Source: Syntrophomonadaceae bacterium (GTDB lineage Bacteria > Bacillota > Syntrophomonadia > Syntrophomonadales > Syntrophomonadaceae). Taken from it: DNA of 43,664 nucleotides. This document shows, one piece after another, positions 5,026 through 27,920 of the stretch. The position numbers and the translations under genes were made by a program. A model generated the notes under the pieces. It saw only the letters and a list, made by a program, of their open reading frames with translations. It made no database searches and had not been told where the DNA came from. The stretch spans positions 1-43,664 of the forward strand of contig JAHDSE010000130.1 in the NCBI GenBank assembly GCA_018432955.1, in the 5' to 3' direction. Every line of letters begins with the position of its first letter. The first letter of the stretch is position 1.

Positions 5026-6174
5026 TCAGCCAAACATGGTCAGAAGGAAGCCCGCAGCCACTGCAGAGCCTATAACACCTGCAACATTAGGCCCCATAGC
5101 ATGCATAAGCAGGAAGTTTGCCGGATTGGCCCTCTGTCCTTCAGCCTGGGCTACCCGGGCAGCCATAGGAACTGCTGAAACACCTGCAGAACCGATAAGA
5201 GGATTGACTTTCCCACCGGACAGCAAGCACATAAGCTTGCCCAGGAGCAATCCACCTATAGTGCTGAATATGAACGCCATCAAGCCCAAAAAAACAATCT
5301 TAAGCGTCTCAGGACTCAGGAATACTTCTGCAACAGCAGTAGCACCTACAGTGGTAGCAAGAAATATGGTTACGATATTGATCAACGCGTTTTGTACAGT
5401 ATCACTGAGTCTTTGCACAACACCGGATTCCCTGAAGAGATTCCCCAGCATCAGCATGCCCAGCAAAGGAGCAACAGCAGGAAGTAAAAGGCAAACAACA
5501 ATTGTTACAACTATAGGAAATACAATTCGTTCCAGCTTGGAAACTTCTCTAAGCTGTACCATTTCAATCTCTCTTTCTTTCTTGCTGGTTAAGAACCGCA
5601 TTATAGGCGGTTGGATCATGGGAATCAATGCCATATAGGAATATGCTGCAATAGCAATAGCCGGAAGCAATTCCGGTGCCAGCTTGGATGAAAGAAATAT
5701 TGCCGTTGGCCCGTCAGCACCGCCAATAATCGCAATAGATGCCGCCTCCTGCGGATTAAATCCCAGCACAACGGCAACAGTAAAGGCAATGTAAATGCCC
5801 AGCTGTGCAGCTGCTCCCAAAAACAAACTGGAAGGCCTGGCTATCAAGGGGCCGAAATCTGTCATGGCACCAATACCCAGGAATATCAGAGAAGGATAAA
5901 TCCCCAGTTTAACTCCCAGATAAATGTAATATAGAAGCCCTCCTGTTCCTGAACCATCAGCAGGCGGTGGGGCCATAAGATTAGCCATCGGCAGATTGGC
6001 CAGGATTACACCAAAGGCGATAGGCAAAAGCAGCAAAGGTTCATACTTTTTCACGATAGCCATATAAATCAGGATGCCTGCCACACAGATCATCACGACC
6101 TGTTGCCAGGTAATTACTGGAAAAGCGGAATTGTTCCATACTTTCAAGAGTGTATCAAGCAAAGATATAGACAT
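5026..6174 (-). CDS. oadB: Na+-translocating decarboxylase, beta subunit (OadB/GcdB family)
   Basis: This 382-residue integral membrane protein has about nine hydrophobic segments and is the sodium channel/decarboxylation subunit of biotin-dependent decarboxylases. Two signature regions are intact: [10 protein letters not shown], containing the Na+-coupling Asp, and [13 protein letters not shown], with the N-x3-G-x4-S pattern of the second functional region. The subunit removes CO2 from carboxybiotin and exports Na+. It starts at ATG 6174 after GGGGAGG and is the last gene of a four-gene leftward operon with alpha, gamma-type and biotin-carrier genes. It differs clearly from the second beta subunit at 26.7 kb. 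The match in length and motifs is strong. Confidence 0.9.
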
Positions 6175-6189
6175 TATTTAACCTCCCCA

Positions 6190-6591
6190 CTACTGCAACG
6201 CAAGAAGGATGTCACCTGTTGATACAGACGCCCCTTGAGCAACATTGAGCTGAGAAACCACTCCATCTCTCGGAGCAGTAACCTCGTTTTCCATTTTCAT
6301 AGCCTCCAGAATAAACAAAACATCCCCTTTGTTCACTTTCGCACCCTGCTGCACTCTAACAGCAAGAATAGTACCAGGCATAGGAGCCTTTACAGGATCA
6401 CCAGAAACAGCCTGAGCTGCCGTGGCAGTTGACGCAAGAGGAGCCGCCTCTGGAGCTGCCGGGGCAGCAGATATCGCTGCAGTTTCCTGTTCAGGTATTA
6501 CGGAAGCCTGAGTAGTCTTCACGATACTTGCTTTGCCTCTTTCTACTTCAACTTCATAATTTTTATCATTAATTGTCACTATGTACTTCAT
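6190..6591 (-). CDS. Biotin carrier subunit of the Na+-pumping decarboxylase
   Basis: A 133-residue separate biotinyl carrier protein. Residues 1-20 form a short N-terminal strand region, about 35-65 are an Ala/Pro-rich flexible linker (AAPAAPEAAP), and 68-133 are a biotinyl domain with EAMKMEN; Lys99 is the biotin site. It moves CO2 from the cytoplasmic carboxyltransferase to the membrane pump. ATG 6591 follows a G-rich ribosome site; the longer frame adds 13 unlike residues and is rejected. In many oxaloacetate decarboxylases this domain is fused to the alpha subunit; here it is free-standing, as in glutaconyl-CoA decarboxylase GcdC. It lies 15 bases upstream of oadB. Confidence 0.9.
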   Translation of the reverse strand: MKYIVTINDKNYEVEVERGKASIVKTTQASVIPEQETAAISAAPAAPEAAPLASTATAAQAVSGDPVKAPMPGTILAVRVQQGAKVNKGDVLFILEAMKMENEVTAPRDGVVSQLNVAQGASVSTGDILLALQ

Positions 6592-6613
6592 TCCCGTTCC
6601 CCCCAATAGTAGC

Positions 6614-6961
6614 TTATATCTCCTGATCAATTGCCTTGATCATCTTGAATTGCAGTTCAGACAAAGGGATCTGGCTCTCATCGCTGACGATAGCCATAAT
6701 CATGGCAGCGGTTTTTTCATCAACCCCTATAAGCTTTAATTCACCTGCAGACCACCCCTCATCGCGCACTTCGGGAAGTTCTGCCAAAACTGTTCCTCCC
6801 TCAGCCAGGACAATGCTCATATCAGTGCTTTTGCCCATGGCTTCCATAATATATCTTAAAACCAGAGACTGAAGCTTTATCAAAACACTAAGCAGAATCA
6901 GCACCAAAAACACGATCGCAAAACCCATGAGGGATACCAGCAAGCTGTCCATCAAAGTCAT
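6614..6961 (-). CDS. oadG: OadG/GcdD-type small subunit of the Na+-pumping decarboxylase
   Basis: A 115-residue protein with one N-terminal membrane helix (about residues 8-30) and a soluble tail ending GVDEKTAAMIMAIVSDES followed by a LQFK segment. This layout matches the gamma (OadG) or delta (GcdD) subunits that hold carboxyltransferase and pump together. It lies 12 bases after the alpha gene and 22 bases before the biotin-carrier gene. Its context makes the assignment firm even though these subunits vary in sequence. Full-length here, it contrasts with the two miniature candidates at 26.4-26.7 kb. Confidence 0.8.
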   Translation of the reverse strand: MTLMDSLLVSLMGFAIVFLVLILLSVLIKLQSLVLRYIMEAMGKSTDMSIVLAEGGTVLAELPEVRDEGWSAGELKLIGVDEKTAAMIMAIVSDESQIPLSELQFKMIKAIDQEI

Positions 6962-6973
6962 AAATACCCTCCT

Positions 6974-8350
6974 TTAGATCTTCTTTATGCTGTAACTGAC
7001 CTTTAAAGCAGTGTTTTCTTCTCTATTCCTGAAGAATTTTTCGGCAATCTGTGGAAAGGCAATGTAAGACAGCACATCCTCATCGTTTTTGGCCAGGCTG
7101 CCAATCTCTTTTTTAGCTTTTTCAAATTCCGGTTCCAGAGTATCCGCAAATCTCTGAGTGATCGGCTTTTCATCTCCCAGAACCATTTTTTCGACTTCAA
7201 CATCTACTGCTCCAGGAGCCTTGCCATATTCGCCTTTAAAATAAGACTTAACTTCCTTGGATATGCTCAGGTATCTTCCTCCCATGAGCACATTGGCTGC
7301 CGCCTGAACTCCAACAATCTGGCTCATAGGTGTCACCAGAGGAGGGTAGCCCAGCTCTTTTCTGACACGGGGAATTTCCTGCAAGACTTCGGGCAGCTTA
7401 TCCAGAGCATTCTGCTGCTTCAATTGGGAAATGAGATTTGAAAGCATTCCCCCGGGCACCTGATATACAAGAGCATCCGTATCCGAACCCAGCACATAGG
7501 GCTCCAGTTCACCAGACTGAATAAACTTTTCCTTCACCGGTTTAAAAAAATCATTGATTTCTTTAAGAACAACTTCGTCAAGTCCCGTTTCATACCCTGA
7601 CTGCTTTAATGCAAAATGCAGGGATTCAGTAGCAGGCTGGGAGGTTCCACCGGAAAAGGCAGAAATAGCACAATCGATGCAATCACAACCCGCTTCAATA
7701 GCCTTAAAATAAGTCATGGGCCCGAGTCCTGTAGTTGAATGGGTATGAAGGGCCACCGGCTTACTGACATTATCCTTGAGCGCCCTGATCAAATCATAGG
7801 CTTCCTGAGGCCCCATAATTCCTGACATATCCTTAATACAGATGGAGTCTACGCCCATTTTTTCCAATTGCCTTCCCAATTTAACATAATTGTCGAGATT
7901 ATGGATAGGACTCAAGGTAAAACAAATAGCACCCTGTGCATGAGCACCACTTTTTAAAGTCTGCTCCAAAGCCACCTCAATATTTCTGAAATCGTTAAGG
8001 GCATCAAAAATTCTCATTATATCTATTCCATTTTGGATGGAATGTTCAACAAATTTCCTGACCACATCATCAGGATAATGCTTGTAGCCCAGTAAATTTT
8101 GGCCTCTCAAAAGCATCTGGAGCTTTGTTTTTTTGATTACTGATTTGATTTTTCTAAGTCTTTCCCAGGGGTCCTCATTCAAGTATCTTAAACAGGAATC
8201 AAATGTTGCTCCACCCCAGCATTCAACTGAATGGTATCCAGCGTTATCAATTTTTTCAAGAATTTCCTCAAAATCACTAAAAGGAAGTCTTGTTGCAATC
8301 AAAGATTGGTTCGCATCTCTTAATACTGTCTCGGTGATATTAACCTTCAT
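6974..8350 (-). CDS. oadA: Oxaloacetate decarboxylase alpha / pyruvate carboxylase subunit B-type carboxyltransferase
   Basis: This 458-residue cytoplasmic enzyme has the HMGL-like TIM barrel of OadA, PycB and transcarboxylase 5S. Visible landmarks are TETVLRDANQS at residues 5-15, the MLLRGQNLLGYKHY segment, CIKDMSGIM with the candidate carboxylated Lys, and the metal-binding HTHSTTG. The C-terminal biotin domain of many OadA proteins is absent and is supplied by the separate carrier gene downstream. It transfers CO2 from oxaloacetate to biotin, giving pyruvate. It starts at ATG 8350 after GGAGTGG and is the first gene of the operon. Methylmalonyl-CoA as donor is less likely given the barrel family, though the substrate is inferred, not proven. 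Confidence 0.85.
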   Translation of the reverse strand: MKVNITETVLRDANQSLIATRLPFSDFEEILEKIDNAGYHSVECWGGATFDSCLRYLNEDPWERLRKIKSVIKKTKLQMLLRGQNLLGYKHYPDDVVRKFVEHSIQNGIDIMRIFDALNDFRNIEVALEQTLKSGAHAQGAICFTLSPIHNLDNYVKLGRQLEKMGVDSICIKDMSGIMGPQEAYDLIRALKDNVSKPVALHTHSTTGLGPMTYFKAIEAGCDCIDCAISAFSGGTSQPATESLHFALKQSGYETGLDEVVLKEINDFFKPVKEKFIQSGELEPYVLGSDTDALVYQVPGGMLSNLISQLKQQNALDKLPEVLQEIPRVRKELGYPPLVTPMSQIVGVQAAANVLMGGRYLSISKEVKSYFKGEYGKAPGAVDVEVEKMVLGDEKPITQRFADTLEPEFEKAKKEIGSLAKNDEDVLSYIAFPQIAEKFFRNREENTALKVSYSIKKI

Positions 8351-8968
8351 AAATCCACTCCATTCCGCATTACTATAATATTAATAAAGCTTTCAAATCG
8401 TTAAATTATCCTCCCATACATGATTATTTAACAATTAACGCAAAAACGCCTTTCTGCCTGATACTCAACAATAGAAACAGAAAGTCGTATATTTACATAT
8501 TATAACAACCATCTGCCTGTAATCCCATAAAATTTACAGCTTTCCTGTATTACTGAGATCCAGTCAATCTACTATTTGGCTATACTATATAAAATATCTC
8601 TAAAAAACCATTGAAATAGTAAGTGTTTACAGGATGCAGAGATCAGGGTATTTATTGAAAAACAATACAGGCCCCCTTGAAACTGAGAAGTGAATTCCAA
8701 GCCGGTTATTGCTGCGTTTTCTCATTTTTTGTATTGTAACCCGGTCATCTTTGCTATACACAGATTATTTTATCAATATATATTCTATTTGTATATGGAT
8801 TTGAATGGCTATAAGCATGTATACATGGCTGTATATAAACAATTTTTCTTCCGGGAAATTGTCATTATTTTTTGCAATTATTCTTTGCCCCTGACATTTT
8901 TGCGCAAATTTTTGATAATAATACAACAGCTGCTTATCCTCTCTCCGGTGTTAAGCAGAAGCAGGAGC
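8351..8968. other. Intergenic region without a recognised gene
   Basis: AT-rich spacer upstream of the oadA operon. No sigma-54 pattern was found on the leftward strand, and no convincing coding frame. CTGCTTA at 8930-8936 can pair with TAAGCAG at 8952-8958 and may be a weak terminator for the PurF-like gene, but it lacks a long T run. Confidence 0.4.
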
Positions 8969-10369
8969 CTATTCTTTCCCATTCCAGCAGTAAGTACAGA
9001 CTTTGTTCTTATCTAAACCGATGGCATCGAGCATATCGTAAATGTTCTGATATTTCAATGTGGAGAAATTAAGGTGTTTTCGAATACAATTCACCATACA
9101 ATCATACTTTTCATTGGCCGGATCACAATATGCCTCAAATGATTCCGGTTCTTTCCCTTCCAGCTCGATTATGGCCTTCCTGGCTACCAGATCCATGTCA
9201 GAGCGTGAAGCTGAGAAGTTCAGGTATTTGCAGCCAAATACCAGGGGCGGGCAAGCTGATCTGATATGAATTTCCCGGGCATGGCATTTATATAAAAGAT
9301 CCACAGTTTCTCTAAGCTGTGTGCCGCGAACAATTGAATCATCACAGAACAACAAGCGTTTGTCGGAAATTAATTCCGGGATCGGCATTAGCTTCATTCG
9401 GGCCACCAGATTCCTTATATTCTGATCCTGCGGCATAAAACTCCTGGCCCAGGTAGGTGTATATTTTATGAAAGGACGTCCATAGGGCACCTTGGACTGG
9501 TTGGAGTAACCAATGGCATGTCCGACACCTGAGTCAGGTATTCCGGCAACCAGATCTATATTTTCATTGTCGTTTTTTGCCATTGCCGCACCATTTCTAT
9601 GACGCATAACCTCTACATTCATTCCCTCATATGTTGAGGATGGATAACCATAATAAACCCATAAAAAAGCACAGATTTTCATTTTATCTTCAGCAGGTTT
9701 AACTATCTCAAAGCCTTCCTCGGTCAGGAAAATTATCTCTCCCGGTCCAAGTTCATATTTAAACCTGTATCCCAGGTTGGCAAAAGTGCAGGATTCAAAA
9801 GAAACGCAGAAGGCTCCTTCTTTCTCGCCCAGCAATAATGGAGTTCTTCCCAATTTGTCCCTGCAGGCATAAATCCCCTTCGGGGTTAAGAGTAAAATCG
9901 AACAGGAACCCTCAATTAATTCCTGGGCTTTTAACAAACCATCCCTGAAAGAATTTTCCTGATCAATTATTACCGATACAAACTCGGTAGGATTAATAGT
10001 CCCCTTACTCGTTTCCAAAAAATGAATATTTCTATGAGTAAAACTTTTTTCCACTATTTCATACATATTATTGATTCTTCCTACTGTACTGATTGCGTAC
10101 TGACCGAGGTGTGATCGCACAGTAAGGGGCTGTGGTTCCGTATCACTTATACATCCTATCCCCATATTACCTTGCATTCTTGGCAGTTCCGATTCAAATT
10201 TGGTTCTGAACGGGGTACTTTCGATATAATGAATTGATCGGTTGAAACTCTTGCCATTCCAAAAAGCCATTCCACCCGTACTGGTTCCCAGATGGGAATG
10301 GTAATCAGTACCAAAATATACATCTGTGACGCAATCTTTTTTTGAAACAACACCAAAAAATCCGCTCAA
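8969..10369 (-). CDS. PurF-like amidophosphoribosyltransferase paralogue without N-terminal Cys
   Basis: This 466-residue protein has an N-terminal Ntn glutamine-amidotransferase-like domain and a C-terminal phosphoribosyltransferase domain. The PRPP loop is clear (LLFCDDSIVRGT, about 339-350), and CTYC near the C-terminus matches the Fe-S cysteines of B. subtilis-type PurF. Start choice matters: TTG 10369 follows AAGGAGTG by nine bases and gives Met-Ser-Gly-Phe-Phe-Gly. The longer frame to 10411 has no good ribosome site. In true PurF the processed N-terminus is the catalytic Cys; here the aligned residue is Ser, and the nearest Cys is ten residues in. Glutamine-dependent PRA synthesis is therefore doubtful. 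No purine genes lie nearby. Confidence 0.75.
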   Translation of the reverse strand: MSGFFGVVSKKDCVTDVYFGTDYHSHLGTSTGGMAFWNGKSFNRSIHYIESTPFRTKFESELPRMQGNMGIGCISDTEPQPLTVRSHLGQYAISTVGRINNMYEIVEKSFTHRNIHFLETSKGTINPTEFVSVIIDQENSFRDGLLKAQELIEGSCSILLLTPKGIYACRDKLGRTPLLLGEKEGAFCVSFESCTFANLGYRFKYELGPGEIIFLTEEGFEIVKPAEDKMKICAFLWVYYGYPSSTYEGMNVEVMRHRNGAAMAKNDNENIDLVAGIPDSGVGHAIGYSNQSKVPYGRPFIKYTPTWARSFMPQDQNIRNLVARMKLMPIPELISDKRLLFCDDSIVRGTQLRETVDLLYKCHAREIHIRSACPPLVFGCKYLNFSASRSDMDLVARKAIIELEGKEPESFEAYCDPANEKYDCMVNCIRKHLNFSTLKYQNIYDMLDAIGLDKNKVCTYCWNGKE

Positions 10370-17926: not shown

Positions 17927-18096
17927 TAATTAGTGATTAAACTGCTACTTTTGATTGTGAGGGGGGATGTCTTAAGCTACTGAATATAGCAAAAAATCAA
18001 TTAAGGCAGTTATTTAAAAATATTGCTTCGATACAAATCCACCTGCAGAACAAATCGCCCTTAATGGAATTATGTATCGCTTTAGGAGGTAAGATT

Positions 18097-19254
18097 GTGA
18101 ATTTTGAATTAACAGATGAACAAAAAATGGTTCAGGATATGGCAAAAAACTTTGCCGAAAAGGAAATTGCCCCTTATGTTGACGAGGATGAAGAAAACCA
18201 TCATTACCGCAGAGAAATATTGACTAAAATGGGTGAGTTGGGTCTTCTGGGTTGGAGCTTGCCTGAGGAGTACGGCGGAAACGGGATGGGCTGGATGGAA
18301 GCTGTATTGGCTCTTTATGAAATCGCCAAAGTTCATACCTCGTGGCGTTTGAGCATAAGCGGCAACAACTGGGGCCCGGCAATGACCATCAACCAGTATG
18401 GAACCCCGGAGCAAAAGGAAAAATACATTCCTAAACTGCTCAGTGGTGAACATGTCGGCAGTTTTGCCATAACTGAAGCCAACTCGGGTTCAGATGTAGC
18501 CAGCATGAAGACCTTTGCCCAGGACAAAGGCGACCACTGGTTAATGAACGGCAGTAAAATGTGGATATCCGGCGGCCATGCATCAGATGTCGGACTCGTT
18601 TATGCGGTTACGGAAAAAGGTGCCGCCCACAAAGGATTATCCTGCTTTATTGTTGATTACAACAATACCCCTGGAATAACCAGAATCCCAATACACACAA
18701 AAGTTGGTATGTGGCCGGCTCCCACATCTGAGCTTGTATTTGAAAACGCTGTAATACCCAAGGAAAACCTCCTGGGTCCCTTGAACCAGGGCTTTCCCAT
18801 TTGCATGTGGCAGTTAAACAATACCCGCATGGGTTGTGCCACCGGTTCAGCAGCACTATCGGCTGCATGCCTGGAAGGTTCTGTTCAGTACGCTAATGAA
18901 CGTACTCAGTTTGGCAAACCCATTGGTAAATATCAGATGATTCAGCAACAGATTACCGAAATGAAATTGGAAGATGAAGCTGCAAAATATCTGGTTTACC
19001 GTGCCGCCTGGTTAAAGGACAAAGGGCTCCCCAATCAGCAAGCTGTATCAATGGCCAAATTGGTTGGCTGCCAGGCTGCGGTTCACGCTGCCAATATGGC
19101 TATGAAAATCTATGGTTCATATGGATACTCTACTGAATACCCCTGTGGAAGATGGCTGCGTGATGCCAAACAGTTTGAGACCCTTGAAGGAACCTCTAAT
19201 ATGCATATGCAGATAATTGCCAATATCGAGCTGGGCTATCAGCCTAACAGATAG
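18097..19254 (+). CDS. Acyl-CoA dehydrogenase, probable non-decarboxylating glutaryl-CoA dehydrogenase
   Basis: This 385-residue flavoenzyme has the acyl-CoA dehydrogenase signatures ITEANSGSD (125-133), ERTQFGKPIG and the catalytic Glu364 in LEGTSNMH. GTG 18097 follows TTAGGAGGTAAG and is preferred over the upstream in-frame ATG at 18064. Two features point to glutaryl-CoA. Arg84 in TSWRLS aligns with the Arg of human glutaryl-CoA dehydrogenase that binds the free carboxylate (GYRSA). The next gene encodes glutaconyl-CoA decarboxylase. Residues linked to decarboxylation in that family differ (Ala77 for Glu, Leu85 for Ser, Leu363 for Tyr), so the expected product is glutaconyl-CoA. The alignment is from memory. 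Electrons would pass to electron-transferring flavoprotein, not encoded here. Confidence 0.75.
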   Translation: MNFELTDEQKMVQDMAKNFAEKEIAPYVDEDEENHHYRREILTKMGELGLLGWSLPEEYGGNGMGWMEAVLALYEIAKVHTSWRLSISGNNWGPAMTINQYGTPEQKEKYIPKLLSGEHVGSFAITEANSGSDVASMKTFAQDKGDHWLMNGSKMWISGGHASDVGLVYAVTEKGAAHKGLSCFIVDYNNTPGITRIPIHTKVGMWPAPTSELVFENAVIPKENLLGPLNQGFPICMWQLNNTRMGCATGSAALSAACLEGSVQYANERTQFGKPIGKYQMIQQQITEMKLEDEAAKYLVYRAAWLKDKGLPNQQAVSMAKLVGCQAAVHAANMAMKIYGSYGYSTEYPCGRWLRDAKQFETLEGTSNMHMQIIANIELGYQPNR

Positions 19255-19313: not shown

Positions 19314-21059
19314 ATGAGCGAATATGGTTTTTCATTACATCCCTATTTCAAGGAAATGCCAGGCATAGGCAAAGCCCTGAGAAAGCAGAACAAGGCTAAT
19401 ACTGAAGAACTGAAAAAGGTTGAAGAAGAAATAAAGGCCGAAGTTGAAAGGGTTAAAAACTCTGGCAAATCCACAGATGCTATGAATAATAAAGGAGAAT
19501 GGGACGTATGGCAGCGCCTGGATTATCTGGTAGATCCAGGTACCTGGCATCCTCTGCATACCATTTATGATCCGAGTCGCAATGAAGAAGGCAGTACCGG
19601 AGTTATCGATGGTCTGGGTAAAATTTCGGGAAAATGGGCGGTAATAATTGCTTCAAACAATAAAATCATGGCCGGGGCCTGGATAGCAGGCCAGGCTGAT
19701 AATATACTCCGCGTTACAGATATTGCCAAAAAATTGCACATACCTCTGGTCTGGGTACTGAACTGCAGTGGTGTAAAACTCATGGAACAGGAAGAAGTAT
19801 ATGCCAACCGCAGAGGCAATGGAACTACATTTTACCGGCATGCTGAATTAGAACAGCTGGGTATTCCTGTAATAGTCGGAATATATGGAACCAATCCTGC
19901 TGGCGGCGGTTACCACGGCATCAGCCCGACAACACTGATAGCTCACAAGAATGCTAATATCGCTGTTGGCGGTGGCGGCATCGTGGGCGGTATGTCTCCC
20001 AAAGGATATTTCGATGACGAAGCCGCCAACGAACTGATCGAGGCCACCCGTCAATTCAGCGCTACCCCGCCGGGAAGGGTGGAAATTCATTATAACGGCA
20101 CCGGGTTTTTCCGGGAAGTATGCGATACCGAAGAGGCGGTTCTGGACAAGATTAAAAAGTATATGCAGGATATGCCGGCATATCATCCGGACTTTTTCCG
20201 TGTCGCTGACCCGGTTGATCCCAAGTTCCCAGCCGAAGACCTTTACAGCCTGGTACCTGCCAACCAGAGAAGGACCTATTCCATGCCCGAGGTTTTGGCC
20301 AGACTGTTTGATAATAGTGAACACTTTGAATACAAACCTGATTACGGCCCCGAAGTATATTGCGGCCTGGCAAAAATTGACGGTTATCTATGCGGAGTAA
20401 TCGGCAATAACCAGGGTGCCCTGGGTGCTGAATATCCCGAATATACTGATAAATATGCAGGCATGGGAGGCAAACTGTATCGCCAGGGCCTTATTAAAAT
20501 GAGCGAATTTGTTACCTTCTGCGGCCGTGACCGCATTCCCATGGTATGGCTTCAAGACACCACCGGCATTGATGTTGGAGATATCGCAGAACGAGCCGAA
20601 CTTCTCGGTCTTGGTCAGTCACTTATCTATTCCATTGAGAGTACCGATCTTCCTATGATGCTTGTTGTACTGAGAAAAGGCACCGCTGCCGCGCACTATG
20701 TTATGGGCGGACCCAACGCCAACAACAACAACATTTTCACTCTGGGAACTGCGGCAACCGAAATCTACGTTATGCACGGTGAAACCGCAGCAGCAGCTTC
20801 CTTTTCACGCCGGCTGGTTAAGGAGCAGGATGCCGGCAACTCTCTGGAACCCGTTATAGAAAAAATGAATGATATGGTCAAAGATTATTACGACAAATCC
20901 CGTCCAGCGTATTGTGCGAAAACAGGCTTTGTTGATGAAGTAGTGAATATGAGCGATCTTAGAAATTATTGCAAAGCATTTGTTGGGGCTGCTTATCAGA
21001 ATCCAACCAGTATATGTCCCCCCCATCAAATGATCACCCCCAGGATAATCAAGGGCTAA
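19314..21059 (+). CDS. gcdA: Glutaconyl-CoA decarboxylase carboxyltransferase subunit alpha
   Basis: This 581-residue protein is a two-domain biotin-dependent acyl-CoA carboxyltransferase. It closely resembles GcdA of Acidaminococcus fermentans (587 residues) along its length. Shared segments include YVLNCSGVK-like VWVLNCSGVK, GIYGTNPAGGGYHGISPT, GKLYRQGLIKM, WLQDTTGIDVGD, LRKGTAAAHYVMGGP and the C-terminal SICPPHQMITPR. It moves CO2 from C4 of (E)-glutaconyl-CoA to biotin, leaving crotonyl-CoA. ATG 19314 follows AAAGGAGATAAAGC, 59 bases after the glutaryl-CoA-dehydrogenase-like gene, so the two are one operon. The biotin carrier (25.3 kb) and membrane pump (26.7 kb) are in separate units. 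A stem-loop terminator follows at 21094. Confidence 0.9.
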   Translation: MSEYGFSLHPYFKEMPGIGKALRKQNKANTEELKKVEEEIKAEVERVKNSGKSTDAMNNKGEWDVWQRLDYLVDPGTWHPLHTIYDPSRNEEGSTGVIDGLGKISGKWAVIIASNNKIMAGAWIAGQADNILRVTDIAKKLHIPLVWVLNCSGVKLMEQEEVYANRRGNGTTFYRHAELEQLGIPVIVGIYGTNPAGGGYHGISPTTLIAHKNANIAVGGGGIVGGMSPKGYFDDEAANELIEATRQFSATPPGRVEIHYNGTGFFREVCDTEEAVLDKIKKYMQDMPAYHPDFFRVADPVDPKFPAEDLYSLVPANQRRTYSMPEVLARLFDNSEHFEYKPDYGPEVYCGLAKIDGYLCGVIGNNQGALGAEYPEYTDKYAGMGGKLYRQGLIKMSEFVTFCGRDRIPMVWLQDTTGIDVGDIAERAELLGLGQSLIYSIESTDLPMMLVVLRKGTAAAHYVMGGPNANNNNIFTLGTAATEIYVMHGETAAAASFSRRLVKEQDAGNSLEPVIEKMNDMVKDYYDKSRPAYCAKTGFVDEVVNMSDLRNYCKAFVGAAYQNPTSICPPHQMITPRIIKG

Positions 21060-21431: not shown

Positions 21432-23552
21432 ATGGAATCGGTAAATTTATCCAATTCTTTTTTTCCTAACTCGCTAATCTATGTCCATGATTTGATGAAT
21501 ACAGATTTTGTAACTGTTCATCCGGATGATTCTTTGCTGACCGTAACCCGAAAATTTACTGAAACTAAAATAGACACTATTCCGGTTGTCGATGAAAAAG
21601 GTAAACTACTGGGAGTTTTTCCCCGAAGGCGGCTATACAAGGCCATTCTGGAAAATAAGAGTCTGGATGTCCCCTGTAGTTCATACATGGTTACATCTCC
21701 TTATGCTCTTTCTTCAGATCTCACCTATGACCAGCTTACTTTCATAATAAAATTGAACCAGACCCAGGTAGGAACAGTTCCTATTGTAGACAAGGACAAT
21801 GTTGTTGTCGGAACCGGTGGAAAAGTTGAATATATGAGAGCTACCGTGAATATGATAAGCAAAGCCAAAGCCCACCTTGACTCCATCTTTCAGGCTATGA
21901 ACGAAGGGATTATAGCTACCGACGAAAAAGGACAGATCATAAGCATTAATCGGGCAGCCGAAAATTTGTTTGGATTAAATGCAGATGATGTGTTCGGGCA
22001 AAATATACAAGAGGTATTTCCAGAAATTGATTCCGATAATGCCCGCCGTCTCAATGTTAAACGCATCATAAATTCTGTTCCGGTTATGATGAATCAGGTG
22101 CCTCTCATCGAAGATGATACCGTTAGAGGAATGAACTACGCCTTTGTTGATTTATCCAGTTTGGAGAAAATAGCGGCTGAATTGGAAAGTGTTAAAAAAT
22201 TACAGGTAGGTCTTCAGGGTGTCCTGAGTGCTTCTTCAGATGGTTTGATACTGACTGACCGGAACGGATTAATTACTTTTTACAATAAGGAAGCAGTGAG
22301 TTTACTGAAAAATCCGCCTGAAACACTTATTGAGCAGCCAGTAGAAAATTATCTGGGAAACCGTACAGCCATTAATGTTGCTAAAACTGCTATGTCTGAG
22401 GTAGAGGTTTGCACCATCGATGGCAAAAACTGCATGGTTTCCTATGTTCCTATAAACTTTGAGGAAGCCAACTTCCCGATGGGCGTAGTTGTTACGATAT
22501 ACCGGGAAGATAATTCCATGTCCGATGAAATGGCCCGAAAATGGTTCTCTCTGCAGCAACAGGTTAAATACTACAAAACTGAACTTGAAAAACAGGGACA
22601 TACTAATGCAGCTTTTAGTAATATAATTACCGAAAATCCTGCTTTTATTAGTTTAAAAAATGAAGCAGAACGCGTCGCCCGCAGCACTTCAACAGTCCTC
22701 CTCACCGGGGAGAGCGGCGTGGGCAAGGATATGTTCGCCCGTGCACTTCACGCTGCCAGCAAACGTGCCCGACGTCCGTTTGTAAAGGTCAACTGTGCTG
22801 CCATACCCGAAACTCTTTTGGAATCGGAACTTTTTGGCTATGAGCCAGGTTCTTTTACCGGAGCATTAAAAAAGGGCAAACCGGGATATTTCGAGCAGGC
22901 CCATGAGGGAACAATTTTTCTGGATGAAATCGGTGAAATGCCTCTATCCATTCAGGTTAAAGTTCTGCAGGCTTTACAGGAAAAACAATTCATGCGCGTT
23001 GGCGGAACCAGTACCCAAACGGTGAATGTCAGAATAATTACTGCTACCAACCGTGATTTGCGTGAGGCCATGGCTCATGGAGAATTCCGGGAGGATCTCT
23101 ATTATCGTTTAAATGTAATAGAATTTCATCTGCCGCCACTGCGTTCAAGGCCCGAGGATATACTTCCTTTGGCGGAAATGTTTATAGAAAAGTACAACAG
23201 CATCCTGGGCACCTTCGTCACCGGGCTTACACCTGAGGCTCGCAATATTTTGACCTCTTATTCCTGGCCGGGGAATATCAGAGAACTGGAAAATGCTATA
23301 GAAAGGGCGGCCAACTATGTTTGGGAAGGTCAGATTGGTAAAGAGCACCTCCCGGCTCAGATATATAAAAACAACAATATCAGCCAAACCGAACCAGGAA
23401 GCCCCTCTTTATCTTCGCTGGATGATGTTGAAAAAAACATCATCCTGGAAGCCCTGGAAAATACTAAAGGAAACAAAAGTGCTGCCGCCCGCCTGCTCAA
23501 AATCAGCCGTTCATCATTATATGAAAAACTGGCCAAACATGGGATTAGTTAG
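21432..23552 (+). CDS. Sigma-54-dependent activator with CBS pair, two PAS domains, AAA+ and Fis-type HTH
   Basis: This 706-residue regulator is built in order from a CBS pair (about 18-140), a PAS domain (about 145-240), a second PAS domain (about 255-360), an AAA+ sigma-54 interaction domain (about 395-635) and a Fis-like helix-turn-helix (about 665-706, GNKSAAARLLKISRSSLYEK). Walker A is GESGVGKD (426-433) and Walker B is TIFLDEIGE. The sigma-54 contact loop reads GSFTGA (473-478) rather than the usual GAFTGA. CBS pairs often bind adenine nucleotides, so it may sense energy charge as well as a PAS ligand. It sits between acd-gcdA and the other gcd genes and is the obvious candidate to control the -24/-12 promoters here. 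Confidence 0.9.
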   Translation: MESVNLSNSFFPNSLIYVHDLMNTDFVTVHPDDSLLTVTRKFTETKIDTIPVVDEKGKLLGVFPRRRLYKAILENKSLDVPCSSYMVTSPYALSSDLTYDQLTFIIKLNQTQVGTVPIVDKDNVVVGTGGKVEYMRATVNMISKAKAHLDSIFQAMNEGIIATDEKGQIISINRAAENLFGLNADDVFGQNIQEVFPEIDSDNARRLNVKRIINSVPVMMNQVPLIEDDTVRGMNYAFVDLSSLEKIAAELESVKKLQVGLQGVLSASSDGLILTDRNGLITFYNKEAVSLLKNPPETLIEQPVENYLGNRTAINVAKTAMSEVEVCTIDGKNCMVSYVPINFEEANFPMGVVVTIYREDNSMSDEMARKWFSLQQQVKYYKTELEKQGHTNAAFSNIITENPAFISLKNEAERVARSTSTVLLTGESGVGKDMFARALHAASKRARRPFVKVNCAAIPETLLESELFGYEPGSFTGALKKGKPGYFEQAHEGTIFLDEIGEMPLSIQVKVLQALQEKQFMRVGGTSTQTVNVRIITATNRDLREAMAHGEFREDLYYRLNVIEFHLPPLRSRPEDILPLAEMFIEKYNSILGTFVTGLTPEARNILTSYSWPGNIRELENAIERAANYVWEGQIGKEHLPAQIYKNNNISQTEPGSPSLSSLDDVEKNIILEALENTKGNKSAAARLLKISRSSLYEKLAKHGIS

Positions 23553-23573: not shown

Positions 23574-24875
23574 TTATTTCTGTTCTCCATTATTTTCCTT
23601 GCTTAGAAAGAAAAATCTCCCGGGGGTTCGCCGGACAAATACTATGCAAAAAACCGCCAAAAGCGAAAGCAAGGCCAGTAATTTCCAGGCTGCACTGTAG
23701 GAATATACCGGATCGTATAGACGAGCCACTAAAATCGGGCCAATAGCTCCCCCCAACAACCCGGACATGGTTATTGTCCCCCAAATTTTACCCATGGATT
23801 TTACTCCAAAGCGGTCTGCTACAACAGCTGACAGAATTAGGGCCGCTCCGTGAGCAGCACCAATAATCACAACCCACAATAGGATCATCTGATATCCTCC
23901 GGGATTGAAGGCGAAAATCAAGCATCCCAGACAGAAAAGGGCATAAGCAACAATAAGCATAAACTTCCGATCCTTCGTCATGTCTGCCAGCCATGCCCCG
24001 CCTACTCCAGCTACCGCTCCAATCAGACCGGTATAACCAAAAAGAGTCGCGGCTTTCATACGGCTCAGCCCCATATCGCACATGGCCATAACTGCGTGGT
24101 TGGTTATACCATACCAGGTGGCCAAATAAAACAAATAAGACAAAAGAAGCAACCAGAATTCACGGGTTGCTATCGCTTCCTTAAAAGACCAGTTGCGGCC
24201 ATGCCAAATTGAACTTTTATCCAAGTCGGTCTTCGCCTTTTTAATCAGCTCGGCTTCGTCGGCACTCATTCCGTCAATATATTGACCTACATCCTGCGGA
24301 TGGTCTTTAGCCAGCAGACCTACCAGCACAATAACTATCAGTCCGGTTACTATCCCCAGTCCGGTTACCGCATTACGCCAGCCATATGCTTCCATTAAAT
24401 ATGCCAATAACGGGTTGAAAATGGCCAGGCCGACCCCGGTTCCCACTCCCACAATGGCTGCTGCCAGACCTCTTTTACGGACAAACCAGCGGGATATCAT
24501 GGTAGTGTTAACCACCATGCCTGCCCCAACCGCTGCCAGAGAAAATAATATTCCGTAAGAAAGGTAGATGCTGAACAAGCTTTGCGCCTGTCCAAAAATG
24601 GTCAGGGCAACAGCCATTAAGAAAGCACCTGACAGGATCATCTTTTTTGGTCCGAAGCGATCCACCAAAGCACCTCCAAAAGGCTGTAAAAAAGCCTGGC
24701 AGAGTATGCTGAGAGAAAATACGCTGGTAACCATGGCTCTGCTCCATCCAAATTCATCCAGTAAGGCCCCGAATAAAGTACCGAAACAGAACTTATTGCC
24801 GTAAATAATGGTTATTACAATAAACCCTATCAGAGTGATAACCCACCCATAGTAAAACCTTGATAAAAGTCTCAT
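23574..24875 (-). CDS. MFS transporter of the oxalate/formate or monocarboxylate type
   Basis: A 433-residue membrane protein with about 12 helices in two halves and a hydrophilic central loop near residues 200-225. FYYGWVI at the N-terminus, the loop-2 motif GALVDRFGPKKM and the matching second-half ADMTKDRKFM place it in the major facilitator superfamily, closest to the OFA/MCT carboxylate branch. ATG 24875 follows GGGGATTTATTG; the TTG just before it has poorer spacing. It is convergent with the activator gene (21 bases between stops). Its place among glutaryl-CoA and glutaconyl-CoA genes suggests uptake of a dicarboxylate or export of a product acid. The substrate is inferred from context only. 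Confidence 0.75.
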   Translation of the reverse strand: MRLLSRFYYGWVITLIGFIVITIIYGNKFCFGTLFGALLDEFGWSRAMVTSVFSLSILCQAFLQPFGGALVDRFGPKKMILSGAFLMAVALTIFGQAQSLFSIYLSYGILFSLAAVGAGMVVNTTMISRWFVRKRGLAAAIVGVGTGVGLAIFNPLLAYLMEAYGWRNAVTGLGIVTGLIVIVLVGLLAKDHPQDVGQYIDGMSADEAELIKKAKTDLDKSSIWHGRNWSFKEAIATREFWLLLLSYLFYLATWYGITNHAVMAMCDMGLSRMKAATLFGYTGLIGAVAGVGGAWLADMTKDRKFMLIVAYALFCLGCLIFAFNPGGYQMILLWVVIIGAAHGAALILSAVVADRFGVKSMGKIWGTITMSGLLGGAIGPILVARLYDPVYSYSAAWKLLALLSLLAVFCIVFVRRTPGRFFFLSKENNGEQK

Positions 24876-25109
24876 CAATAAATCCCCTTCCCCAGGATTT
24901 CGAAACTATAGCCGGATCATGCCCATATCATGACCTCGAACCATATAATCCGCCAACCTGGGTGACCAAGATCCAGCCATCAGGCATTCTTATAACGATA
25001 TTCTCAATTAATTGCGAATTGCGGCTCGAAACTGCACATGTTCATAACTGTCTGGAAAAGCCACAGCAAAGATCACCAATTTATATATCAGCTTGCGGCA
25101 TCATAATTA

Positions 25110-25309: not shown

Positions 25310-25522
25310 CTACTCAAGAACGGCTATAACAGCCCCTTCGTCAATACGGTCGCCAACCGCAACTTTGATTTCTTTTACAGTCCCATCTTCATCGGGGAAA
25401 ACGGGGTTTTCCATTTTCATGGCTTCAATAATCATAATTTCGTCATCTTCAGTCACCTGGTCGCCAACCTTACAGTTAATTGCTAATACTTTACCCGCAA
25501 TCGGGCTTTCTACATTCGCCAT
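25310..25522 (-). CDS. gcdC: Minimal free-standing biotin carrier, probable glutaconyl-CoA decarboxylase gamma
   Basis: This 70-residue protein is just one biotinyl domain, with EAMKMENP and Lys36 as the biotin site. It lacks the N-terminal region and the Ala/Pro linker found in classical GcdC (about 145 residues) and in the second carrier of this window (133 residues at 6.2 kb). ATG 25522 follows GGAGGTTAG. It has its own sigma-54 promoter at 25679-25694, back to back with the promoter for the small-subunit/GcdB-like operon, which argues that it works with that pump and with GcdA. How so short a carrier reaches both partners is an open point. Confidence 0.8.
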   Translation of the reverse strand: MANVESPIAGKVLAINCKVGDQVTEDDEIMIIEAMKMENPVFPDEDGTVKEIKVAVGDRIDEGAVIAVLE

Positions 25523-26008: not shown

Positions 26009-26429
26009 AATTAAAGGGACGGGCGTGAAAGTGAGGGGGGATGACATCCAGGTTATTCTTTATACCGCCTTTTTTAAAAGCAATACATGTGGGAGAATAG
26101 TATATCCCCAAATTAACCAATAAAGTTCGCTTCCAGCGGTTATTAAGGCTTATGCTCAAGTATTTTTGGTACAAAAAATGCCAATACTGTTATCAGCCCT
26201 ATCACGTAGCAGTTGTTGTAGATAATTGTGGACAAAAAATAATTTAATACTGATCTGTGGCCAATTTAGCCTTGCTTTAAGTGCTGGGACGGTGATTAGT
26301 GAGAGACCCGGATATTGGATTATATTTTTTCTTGTTTCAAGGTGGGATTCTTACTGATTTGCACCAGACAACAACAGCTCAGGTTTTTTTAATTAGGTGA
26401 TTTTTATGACAGGATAGGAGGAAAATAAT

Positions 26430-26522
26430 ATGTTCACGACAACACAACTCATGGTTGGCGGTGCTGTTCTTGCACTGGTTATTATAGCTTTTGTGATACT
26501 CGTCAGAAAAGAATTACAATAA
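26430..26522 (+). CDS. 30-residue single-span membrane peptide of the Na+-pump operon
   Basis: This is a tiny frame with an excellent ribosome site (AGGAGG, eight bases before ATG). The product is MFTTTQLMVGGAV followed by LALVIIAFVILVRKELQ: a polar N-terminus, one membrane helix of about 20 residues and a basic end. It is the first gene of a three-gene unit with a 47-residue membrane peptide and a GcdB-like pump, with gaps of 25 and 17 bases. It matches no family recognised here. Its place suggests an accessory subunit of the pump, perhaps part of a split GcdD-like anchor. The case rests on ribosome site, spacing and helix rather than homology. Confidence 0.6.
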   Translation: MFTTTQLMVGGAVLALVIIAFVILVRKELQ

Positions 26523-26547
26523 ATTTTCTAATTTAGGAGGGGATAAA

Positions 26548-26691
26548 ATGGATTCGATTACACTGGTACTTCAATTTTATGGGCTGGGTATTATTATATC
26601 CTTTTTGCTCGCGGTTACGATCAAAGCAATGTTGGGGACTATCCGCTTGTTCTCCCGCGATAAATCGGAAGAAGTACAACACGCAGACTAG
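26548..26691 (+). CDS. 47-residue OadG-like membrane peptide of the Na+-pump operon
   Basis: The product has one N-terminal membrane helix (about residues 6-29, VLQFYGLGIIISFLLAV) and a short charged tail (RLFSRDKSEEVQHAD). This is the outline of the gamma/delta subunits (OadG, GcdD) of Na+-pumping decarboxylases, but those are normally 80-115 residues and the one at 6.6 kb is 115. ATG 26548 follows GGAGGGG. The gene lies 25 bases after the 30-residue peptide and 17 bases before the GcdB-like gene. It probably anchors GcdA or the biotin carrier to the pump. The assignment comes from position and shape. Confidence 0.65.
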   Translation: MDSITLVLQFYGLGIIISFLLAVTIKAMLGTIRLFSRDKSEEVQHAD

Positions 26692-26708: not shown

Positions 26709-27920
26709 ATGGATTTAATGTATTTGTTTCAGGGTATAGGCACCTTTTTTGAAATGGAGACACATCTAGCCATAGCAAGAGTAATTTTAATATTTCTTGG
26801 GATAGCCCTTGTTTTTCTGGGAGCCAAAAATATTTTGGAACCCCTGGTCATGGTACCAATGGGATTTGGTATGGCAGCCGTAAATGCAGGTATGCTTTTC
26901 TTAAGTGATACCAAGATAGGCACCCTCGTAGTTGACCCTTTGGTTTCCGACATTCCCGGTTTGATATCTGTTCTGCAGATTGATTTTTTGCAGCCCGTAT
27001 TCACCTTTGCCTTCAGCAATAATCTGATCGCCTGTATTGTTTTCATGGGTGTCGGGGTGCTCTGCGATGTCGGCTATCTTTTGAAATATCCTTTTACCTG
27101 CATGCTCATAGCCTTGTTTGCAGAGCTGGGTACCATTGTCACCTACCCCATTGCCATAGCTATGGGGCTTCCTCCCGCGCATGCGGCTGCAGCAGCTATC
27201 GTTGGTACTGCAGATGGTCCTCTGGTTCTGTTTTCATCACTGATGCTGGCTCCGGAAATCTTTGTTCCAATTACAGTTATTGCCTATCTTTATTTGAGCC
27301 TGACCTACGCTGGTTACCCATATATCATTAAGGCAATGATTCCCAAGGAATACAGAGGAGCAAAAATTAAAACAAGCAAGAAAACGGTTGAAGTAAGTTC
27401 CCATGAAAAATTGGTTTTTTCGATAGTAGGCTGCACGATTTTATGCCTGCTGTTGCCGGCAGCTACTCCACTGCTGTTAAGCTTTTTCCTCGGTGTAGCC
27501 ATTAAGGAATCAGGGATAACCAAATACGTTACTATGATTGAATCAACTTTCTTATATGCCGCTTCCTTTTTCCTGGGTTTGATGCTGGGTGTCTTATGTG
27601 ATGCCAACACCATTTTAAATCCGGTTGTTGCCCCACTACTGTTTCTCGGTATTCTTGCCCTGACCCTTTCTGCGGTCGGCGGAGTCATTGGCGGCTACTT
27701 CATTTATTTTATCAGCGGCAAAAATTTCAATCCCACTGTAGGTATCGCCGCTGTATCCTGTGTACCCAGTACAGCTAAAATTGCCCAGAAAGAAGTCAGC
27801 AAAGCAAAAAGATCCACTATCATTCTGCAATGGGCCATGGGTGCGAATATATGTGGTGTGTTGACCAGCGCTATTCTCATGGGAATTTATATCACGGTCA
27901 TACCAATGCTTGGCAAGTAA
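26709..27920 (+). CDS. gcdB: Na+-translocating decarboxylase beta subunit, probable glutaconyl-CoA decarboxylase beta
   Basis: This 403-residue polytopic membrane protein belongs to the OadB/GcdB/MmdB family. The Na+-coupling Asp is kept in VGTADGPLVLF, and NPTVGIAAVSCVP keeps the N-x3-G-x4-S pattern. It is more diverged from the family norm than the copy at 5.0 kb: the N-terminal 60 residues and the GTADGPL and CVPSTAK segments differ. ATG 26709 follows GTGAGGATAGG. It is the third gene of the unit with the two miniature membrane peptides and is driven by a sigma-54 promoter. With GcdA (19.3 kb) and the 70-residue biotin carrier it would form a complete sodium-exporting glutaconyl-CoA decarboxylase. 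Assignment to that substrate is from context. Confidence 0.85.
   Translation: MDLMYLFQGIGTFFEMETHLAIARVILIFLGIALVFLGAKNILEPLVMVPMGFGMAAVNAGMLFLSDTKIGTLVVDPLVSDIPGLISVLQIDFLQPVFTFAFSNNLIACIVFMGVGVLCDVGYLLKYPFTCMLIALFAELGTIVTYPIAIAMGLPPAHAAAAAIVGTADGPLVLFSSLMLAPEIFVPITVIAYLYLSLTYAGYPYIIKAMIPKEYRGAKIKTSKKTVEVSSHEKLVFSIVGCTILCLLLPAATPLLLSFFLGVAIKESGITKYVTMIESTFLYAASFFLGLMLGVLCDANTILNPVVAPLLFLGILALTLSAVGGVIGGYFIYFISGKNFNPTVGIAAVSCVPSTAKIAQKEVSKAKRSTIILQWAMGANICGVLTSAILMGIYITVIPMLGK

Follow-up and report, generated by a model that had tools for sequence, protein, structure and literature searches.

Decarboxylase Na+ pumps are described as machines whose soluble enzyme is fastened to the membrane pump by OadG or GcdD. 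The solved structure of the OAD complex shows the gamma helix bound to the beta subunit and the C-terminal tail bound to alpha, the OadG tail being required to hold alpha; the Na+-site residues of OadB are D203, S382, and N412 (PMC7274780). The C-terminal region of GcdD and the N-terminal region of GcdC are thought to link the head with the membrane base (PMC7145394). A literature search on madY/madZ, MmdE, or small OadG-like subunits returned no relevant paper.

The window considered here, i.e., the whole analyzed stretch of 43,664 nucleotides from a Syntrophomonadaceae bacterium, contains both OAD_beta genes found in this genome (67% complete). One of them belongs to a canonical decarboxylase encoded on the minus strand (5026-8350), which comprises a canonical OAD_beta (5026-6174; TIGR01109, 495 bits), a biotin carrier of 146 aa with a long N-terminal part and a linker (6190-6630), a GcdD/OadG-like subunit (6614-6961; PF04277, 26.6 bits) that also matches our model of the C-terminal domain (CTD), and an OadA/PycB-type carboxyltransferase without a biotin domain of its own (6974-8350). 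The length of 115 residues that a preliminary description of this DNA had given for the GcdD/OadG-like subunit was confirmed. The second OAD_beta gene (26709-27920, plus strand) encodes a carboxybiotin decarboxylase/Na+ translocating beta subunit of 403 aa (PF03977, E 5.7e-100, 335 bits). It had been called GcdB-like, but is MadB-like instead: the best subfamily is TIGR03136 (MadB) with 498 bits, below the equivalog cut-off of 596.9, vs. only 183 bits for the canonical GcdB/OadB model TIGR01109. The Na+-site residues are kept, as D169, S350, and N380 align with D203, S382, and N412 of OadB (alignment to 6iva).

The plus strand upstream of the MadB-type gene carries a glutaryl-CoA dehydrogenase-like acyl-CoA dehydrogenase (18064-19254; PDB 3mpi; NF045552, 416 bits, below the cut-off of 470), the glutaconyl-CoA decarboxylase carboxyltransferase GcdA (19314-21059, 581 aa), whose best solved-structure matches are both GcdA structures (1pix and 3gf3, 794 and 784 bits), and a sigma-54-type activator (21432-23552), recognized by eye from its translation and kept beside GcdA in loci L043, L050, and L059. 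They are followed on the minus strand by an MFS-like transporter, also recognized by eye (23574-24878), and a biotin carboxyl carrier of only 70 aa, with neither an N-terminal anchor nor an Ala/Pro linker (25310-25522). In the related genome G024, the block of dehydrogenase, GcdA, activator, MFS transporter, and thiolase is ordered as in the window, and the block of carrier, the two small frames discussed below, and MadB is located elsewhere. Sinanaerobacter (L043) has a single operon tiny1-tiny2-MadB-carrier-dehydrogenase-GcdA-activator, and the genes for dehydrogenase, GcdA, carrier, tiny2, and MadB form single operons in Rhodospirillaceae (L099, L104) and Polaromonas (L116). The product of the MadB-type gene probably serves as the Na+ pump in a glutaconyl-CoA decarboxylase, and the likely task of the cluster is the conversion of glutaryl-CoA via glutaconyl-CoA to crotonyl-CoA with Na+ export.

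Two small frames on the plus strand, named tiny1 and tiny2 here, directly precede the MadB-type gene. The first (26430-26522) encodes 30 aa, MFTTTQLMVGGAVLALVIIAFVILVRKELQ, with the C-terminus VRKELQ, and is preceded by the ribosome-binding site AGGAGG (26417-26422); the second (26548-26691) encodes 47 aa, MDSITLVLQFYGLGIIISFLLAVTIKAMLGTIRLFSRDKSEEVQHAD, with the motif F..AV.IK.ML..IR, and has the ribosome-binding site AGGAGGGG (26535-26542). The end of tiny2 is separated by 17 nt from the beta subunit gene. Each peptide has one hydrophobic stretch, predicted to form a single helix. The coordinates, codon numbers, strong ribosome sites, and single helices of the preliminary description were exact.

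It had further proposed a search for conserved tiny frames in relatives, and both indeed recur at the same site in dozens of bacteria. Among five relatives whose MadB is 67-75% identical to that of the window, tiny2 occupies the same position in all five and a complete tiny1 in four; the remaining relative (L006/L048) has an intact tiny1 frame upstream of MadB, with no ATG, GTG, or TTG at the usual start, which may reflect a sequencing error, an unusual start codon, or decay. The tiny2 and MadB genes of L006 overlap in different reading frames. For the small frames, pN was 0.31 for tiny1 and 0.30 for tiny2 vs. pS of 0.61 and 0.69, respectively, i.e., silent-site differences are about twice as frequent as amino-acid-changing ones; the corresponding values for MadB of L006 came from a shifted frame and were disregarded. 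Named genomes scanned with a single sequence yielded no matches; an alignment-based scan returned 80 MadB-type loci. Peptide-profile searches of these loci placed tiny2 upstream of the MadB-type gene in 78 and tiny1 in 31, with no further match below E of about 0.4 except a second tandem copy in L047. The two tiny2 exceptions are a contig end (L105) and an in-frame fusion exceeding the filter length (L113); hence the tiny2 family, alone or fused, adjoins the MadB-type gene in all 79 testable named loci, which span five phyla. In the separately found locus of G404 (L041), a tiny2-like frame lies directly downstream of MadB. The whole tiny1-tiny2-MadB set is duplicated in tandem in L047 (5864-8100 and beyond), a second MadB following the second peptide pair. 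Sequence comparison thus confirmed tiny1 and tiny2 as real genes, beyond chance.

We propose that the cluster encodes an untethered Na+ decarboxylase, in which tiny2 would represent the OadG/GcdD helix, the beta subunit would have minimal peptides as its partners, and the biotin carrier would be diffusible; this reading appears to us fairly probable, at about two chances in three. The binding, stoichiometry, diffusion, and Na+ pumping that we infer would be as follows. Within the membrane, the tiny2 peptide would attach to the MadB-type beta subunit in the way the OadG helix attaches to OadB, and would stabilize or tune it; tiny1, restricted to its clade, would add another single-helix partner for this subunit. 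There would be no CTD to tether the carboxyltransferase and the carrier, the matching anchor and linker of the carrier being gone too. Soluble GcdA would transfer CO2 from glutaconyl-CoA to the 70-residue carrier, and the loaded carrier would diffuse to the membrane, where MadB would decarboxylate it and export Na+.

The relationship of tiny2 to OadG/GcdD was assessed by profile comparison. Tiny2 of the window has no match to PF04277 (OAD_gamma), and two of 20 family members gave weak matches (best E 0.012); NF040909 (cut-off 25 bits) matched nothing in the window genome and none of the tiny2 members scanned. Searches of solved structures with the tiny1 and tiny2 families gave nothing meaningful, a match to a 21-aa phenol-soluble modulin (E 0.27) being taken as chance, and weak matches of the window peptides to DUF4059 and GGIII-CTERM were set aside as being below the cut-offs and not common to the families. 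In 14 proteobacterial loci, tiny2 is fused to a C-terminal domain. The fused proteins of Propionivibrio, Accumulibacter, Kiloniellaceae, Magnetococcales, and relatives start with the tiny2 helix (YG....S..VAVLIK in most) and continue with an Ala/Pro linker and the domain V.AAI.AA...GPH.I..I....W...GR..QHSH. In hhalign comparisons, tiny2 scored 98% against the N-terminal helix of fused proteins at the same genomic position (Propionivibrio/Accumulibacter) and 83% against canonical GcdD/OadG helices, vs. 1.7% for the equally hydrophobic tiny1 profile used as a control. We therefore regard tiny2, with moderate confidence, as a homolog of the OadG/GcdD N-terminal helix, a single membrane span being weak proof of homology, and it is best read as an OadG/GcdD-type subunit apparently reduced to its membrane helix. 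The suggestion that the peptides stand in place of a GcdD/OadG subunit holds in that the frames occupy that gene position and the 47-mer appears to be a helix-only relative of this subunit.

Several observations count against our explanation. Tiny2 and a separate full-length GcdD occur together in Verrucomicrobiota, L036/L118, and L108/L119, so that in these bacteria tiny2 would add to OadG rather than replace it. Moreover, tiny2-MadB pairs are found next to LysR genes with no decarboxylase gene nearby. These are the LysR/tiny2-MadB units of Lachnospiraceae and Clostridium aminobutyricum (L053, L061, L082), which have neither a carboxyltransferase nor a biotin carrier in the vicinity. Both patterns suggest that the primary partner of tiny2 is the beta subunit rather than the decarboxylase head. 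Finally, the window's own genome encodes a full GcdD, that of the other pump. The occurrence of tiny2 together with full GcdD and the full GcdD of the window genome, along with the lack of OadG similarity in tiny1, would suit a different explanation, to which we give roughly one chance in five: tiny1 and tiny2 could be general transporter stabilizers with no OadG ancestry, like KdpF and CydX, which together with AcrZ represent single-helix subunits of membrane machines (29-49 aa), and the tether of GcdA could be the 115-aa GcdD of the other pump or some separate protein. However, the fusions of tiny2 to the CTD and its similarity to the fused-protein helix speak for OadG ancestry, and three near-complete relatives possess no CTD protein at all (see below).

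The tiny1 peptides form a family (A7) of 30-mers with a common helix and the tail I(R/K)xEL. They had no match above any curated cut-off in Pfam and NCBIfam and no known relatives, and profile comparison revealed no similarity to OadG or tiny2; by these measures, tiny1 is a separate family. On the MadB tree its members fall within a single clostridial clade, as would be expected from one gain and one or two losses; L065 was counted as lacking tiny1, but this locus begins at the contig edge. A role of tiny1 as the second beta partner is suggested by its position and conservation. It could instead be a mere leader peptide or a translational-coupling frame, with tiny2 alone being functional. This option, compatible with our reading of tiny2, would agree with the clade-limited distribution and the missing start codon in L006/L048, but we consider it rather improbable, since the helix and the IRKEL tail residues are conserved in more than 30 genomes, the frame has its own ribosome site and pN below pS, and there is no run of regulatory codons.

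The CTD model recovers the domain in the fused proteins and in most of the canonical operons used for comparison, but neither the window cluster nor the clostridial glutaconyl clusters gave a match. Genome-wide searches detected no CTD in G024, G031, and G016 (100, 99, and 98% complete), and G024 and G031 also lack any match to OAD_gamma; all three genomes carry MadB, tiny2, the tiny1 frame, and GcdA. A full-length GcdD encoded elsewhere, which would have spoken against the preliminary description, is thus absent from three near-complete relatives that carry this gene set. The length of the biotin carrier follows the CTD. Where the domain is missing (about 25 cases), the carrier has about 70 aa and consists of the biotin domain alone, and where it is present (about 20 cases), the carrier measures 115-140 aa and has both the N-terminal anchor K.F.ITVNG..Y.V and an Ala/Pro linker; there are no exceptions, although on the tree this co-variation amounts to three independent changes (p 0.25), too few to reach significance. 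As these regions presumably link the head to the membrane base (PMC7145394) and the OadG tail is required to hold alpha (PMC7274780), the joint loss of the CTD and the carrier anchor points to an untethered pump.

The preliminary description had taken the two peptides for a split, minimal anchor. Neither word seems to fit: tiny1 resembles neither OadG nor tiny2 and the C-terminal half is absent, so that the CTD of the window cluster is, as far as its genes indicate, lost rather than split off, and an anchoring role is doubtful, since it is the missing domain that holds the carboxyltransferase (PMC7274780, PMC7145394). Truly split OadG does occur in relatives. A methylmalonyl-CoA-decarboxylase-like operon of Sedimentibacter (L063:8920-12701), which adjoins a tiny1-tiny2-MadB set, encodes a canonical OAD_beta, a 46-aa helix peptide, MmdA, a soluble 95-aa CTD protein, and a long carrier. 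In G084, a soluble 84-aa CTD protein is encoded between MmdA and a long carrier (L162:7072-7326); tiny1-tiny2-MadB is on a different contig, and this MadB is the only OAD_beta match of the genome. By analogy, tiny1 and tiny2, or a helix peptide and a separately encoded CTD, could restore a normal subunit in the window as well, but we judge this quite unlikely, given that no CTD protein was found near the window cluster or in the three near-complete relatives and that the matching carrier anchor is absent too. The last option, chance frames with no product, has only the short length of the frames in its favor, is refuted computationally by all conservation data, and may be dismissed as extremely improbable.

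In malonate decarboxylase operons, a tiny2-like frame of 38-40 aa was found between mdcB/citG and madB, both on plasmid pRCB133 of Rhodobacter capsulatus (L174, about 8860-8979) and in a Klebsiella pneumoniae record (L175, about 8840-8964). Neither frame is listed in the gene table, which is incomplete by design. The carriers of both operons have 69-72 aa, and no OadG is listed. Tiny2 may thus have escaped notice as a component of the textbook malonate pump, and it is a candidate for the small subunit apparently missing from malonate decarboxylase. The whole MadB branch, including these operons, appears to retain only the OadG helix, having lost the tether and the docking partner of the carrier. 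We give even odds to the general claim that untethered pumps exist, with a free carboxyltransferase, a 70-residue carrier, and a MadB-type pump held by one or two single-helix peptides, with tiny2 as a previously unlisted subunit throughout the MadB branch, that of malonate decarboxylase among them, and tiny1 as a new subunit without known relatives. It offers a testable rule, that a short carrier means no tether domain, and both peptides and their genes could easily be overlooked in purification and annotation.

Compared with known systems, tiny2 shares with OadG, GcdD, and MmdD (PF04277) the small size, the position beside OAD_beta, and a single N-terminal helix with profile similarity; in contrast to them, it has neither the Ala/Pro linker nor the C-terminal domain that binds the carboxyltransferase and the carrier, and it scores below the Pfam cut-off, while tiny1 is not similar to them at all. 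The OadG-related small transporter subunit NF040909 is, like tiny2, a helix-only protein of 40-50 aa encoded beside an OAD_beta gene, but it was found here beside the canonical beta branch and downstream of beta, and has no second peptide, and tiny2 scores nothing with this model. NF040909 is thus an independent precedent for a helix-only OadG-like subunit; the arrangement announced as new was to this extent already known, and the locus adds what appears to be another such family. The Na+-translocating malonate decarboxylase (TIGR03136) of Rhodobacter capsulatus and Klebsiella shares with the window cluster the MadB-type beta subunit, a carrier of about 70 aa, and a tiny2-like frame before madB, but uses an ACP-based carboxyl donor instead of GcdA and lacks tiny1. 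The GcdABCD enzymes of Clostridium symbiosum and Acidaminococcus have a homologous GcdA (1pix, 3gf3), and the window cluster presumably catalyzes their reaction; these enzymes possess a full-length GcdD and a GcdC with anchor and linker, whereas in the window both are reduced and the beta subunit is of the MadB branch. Finally, CydX (PMC4325964) and AcrZ (PMC7267776) are described as tiny helix subunits and, with KdpF, provide a functional precedent for the window peptides, no sequence relation being claimed.
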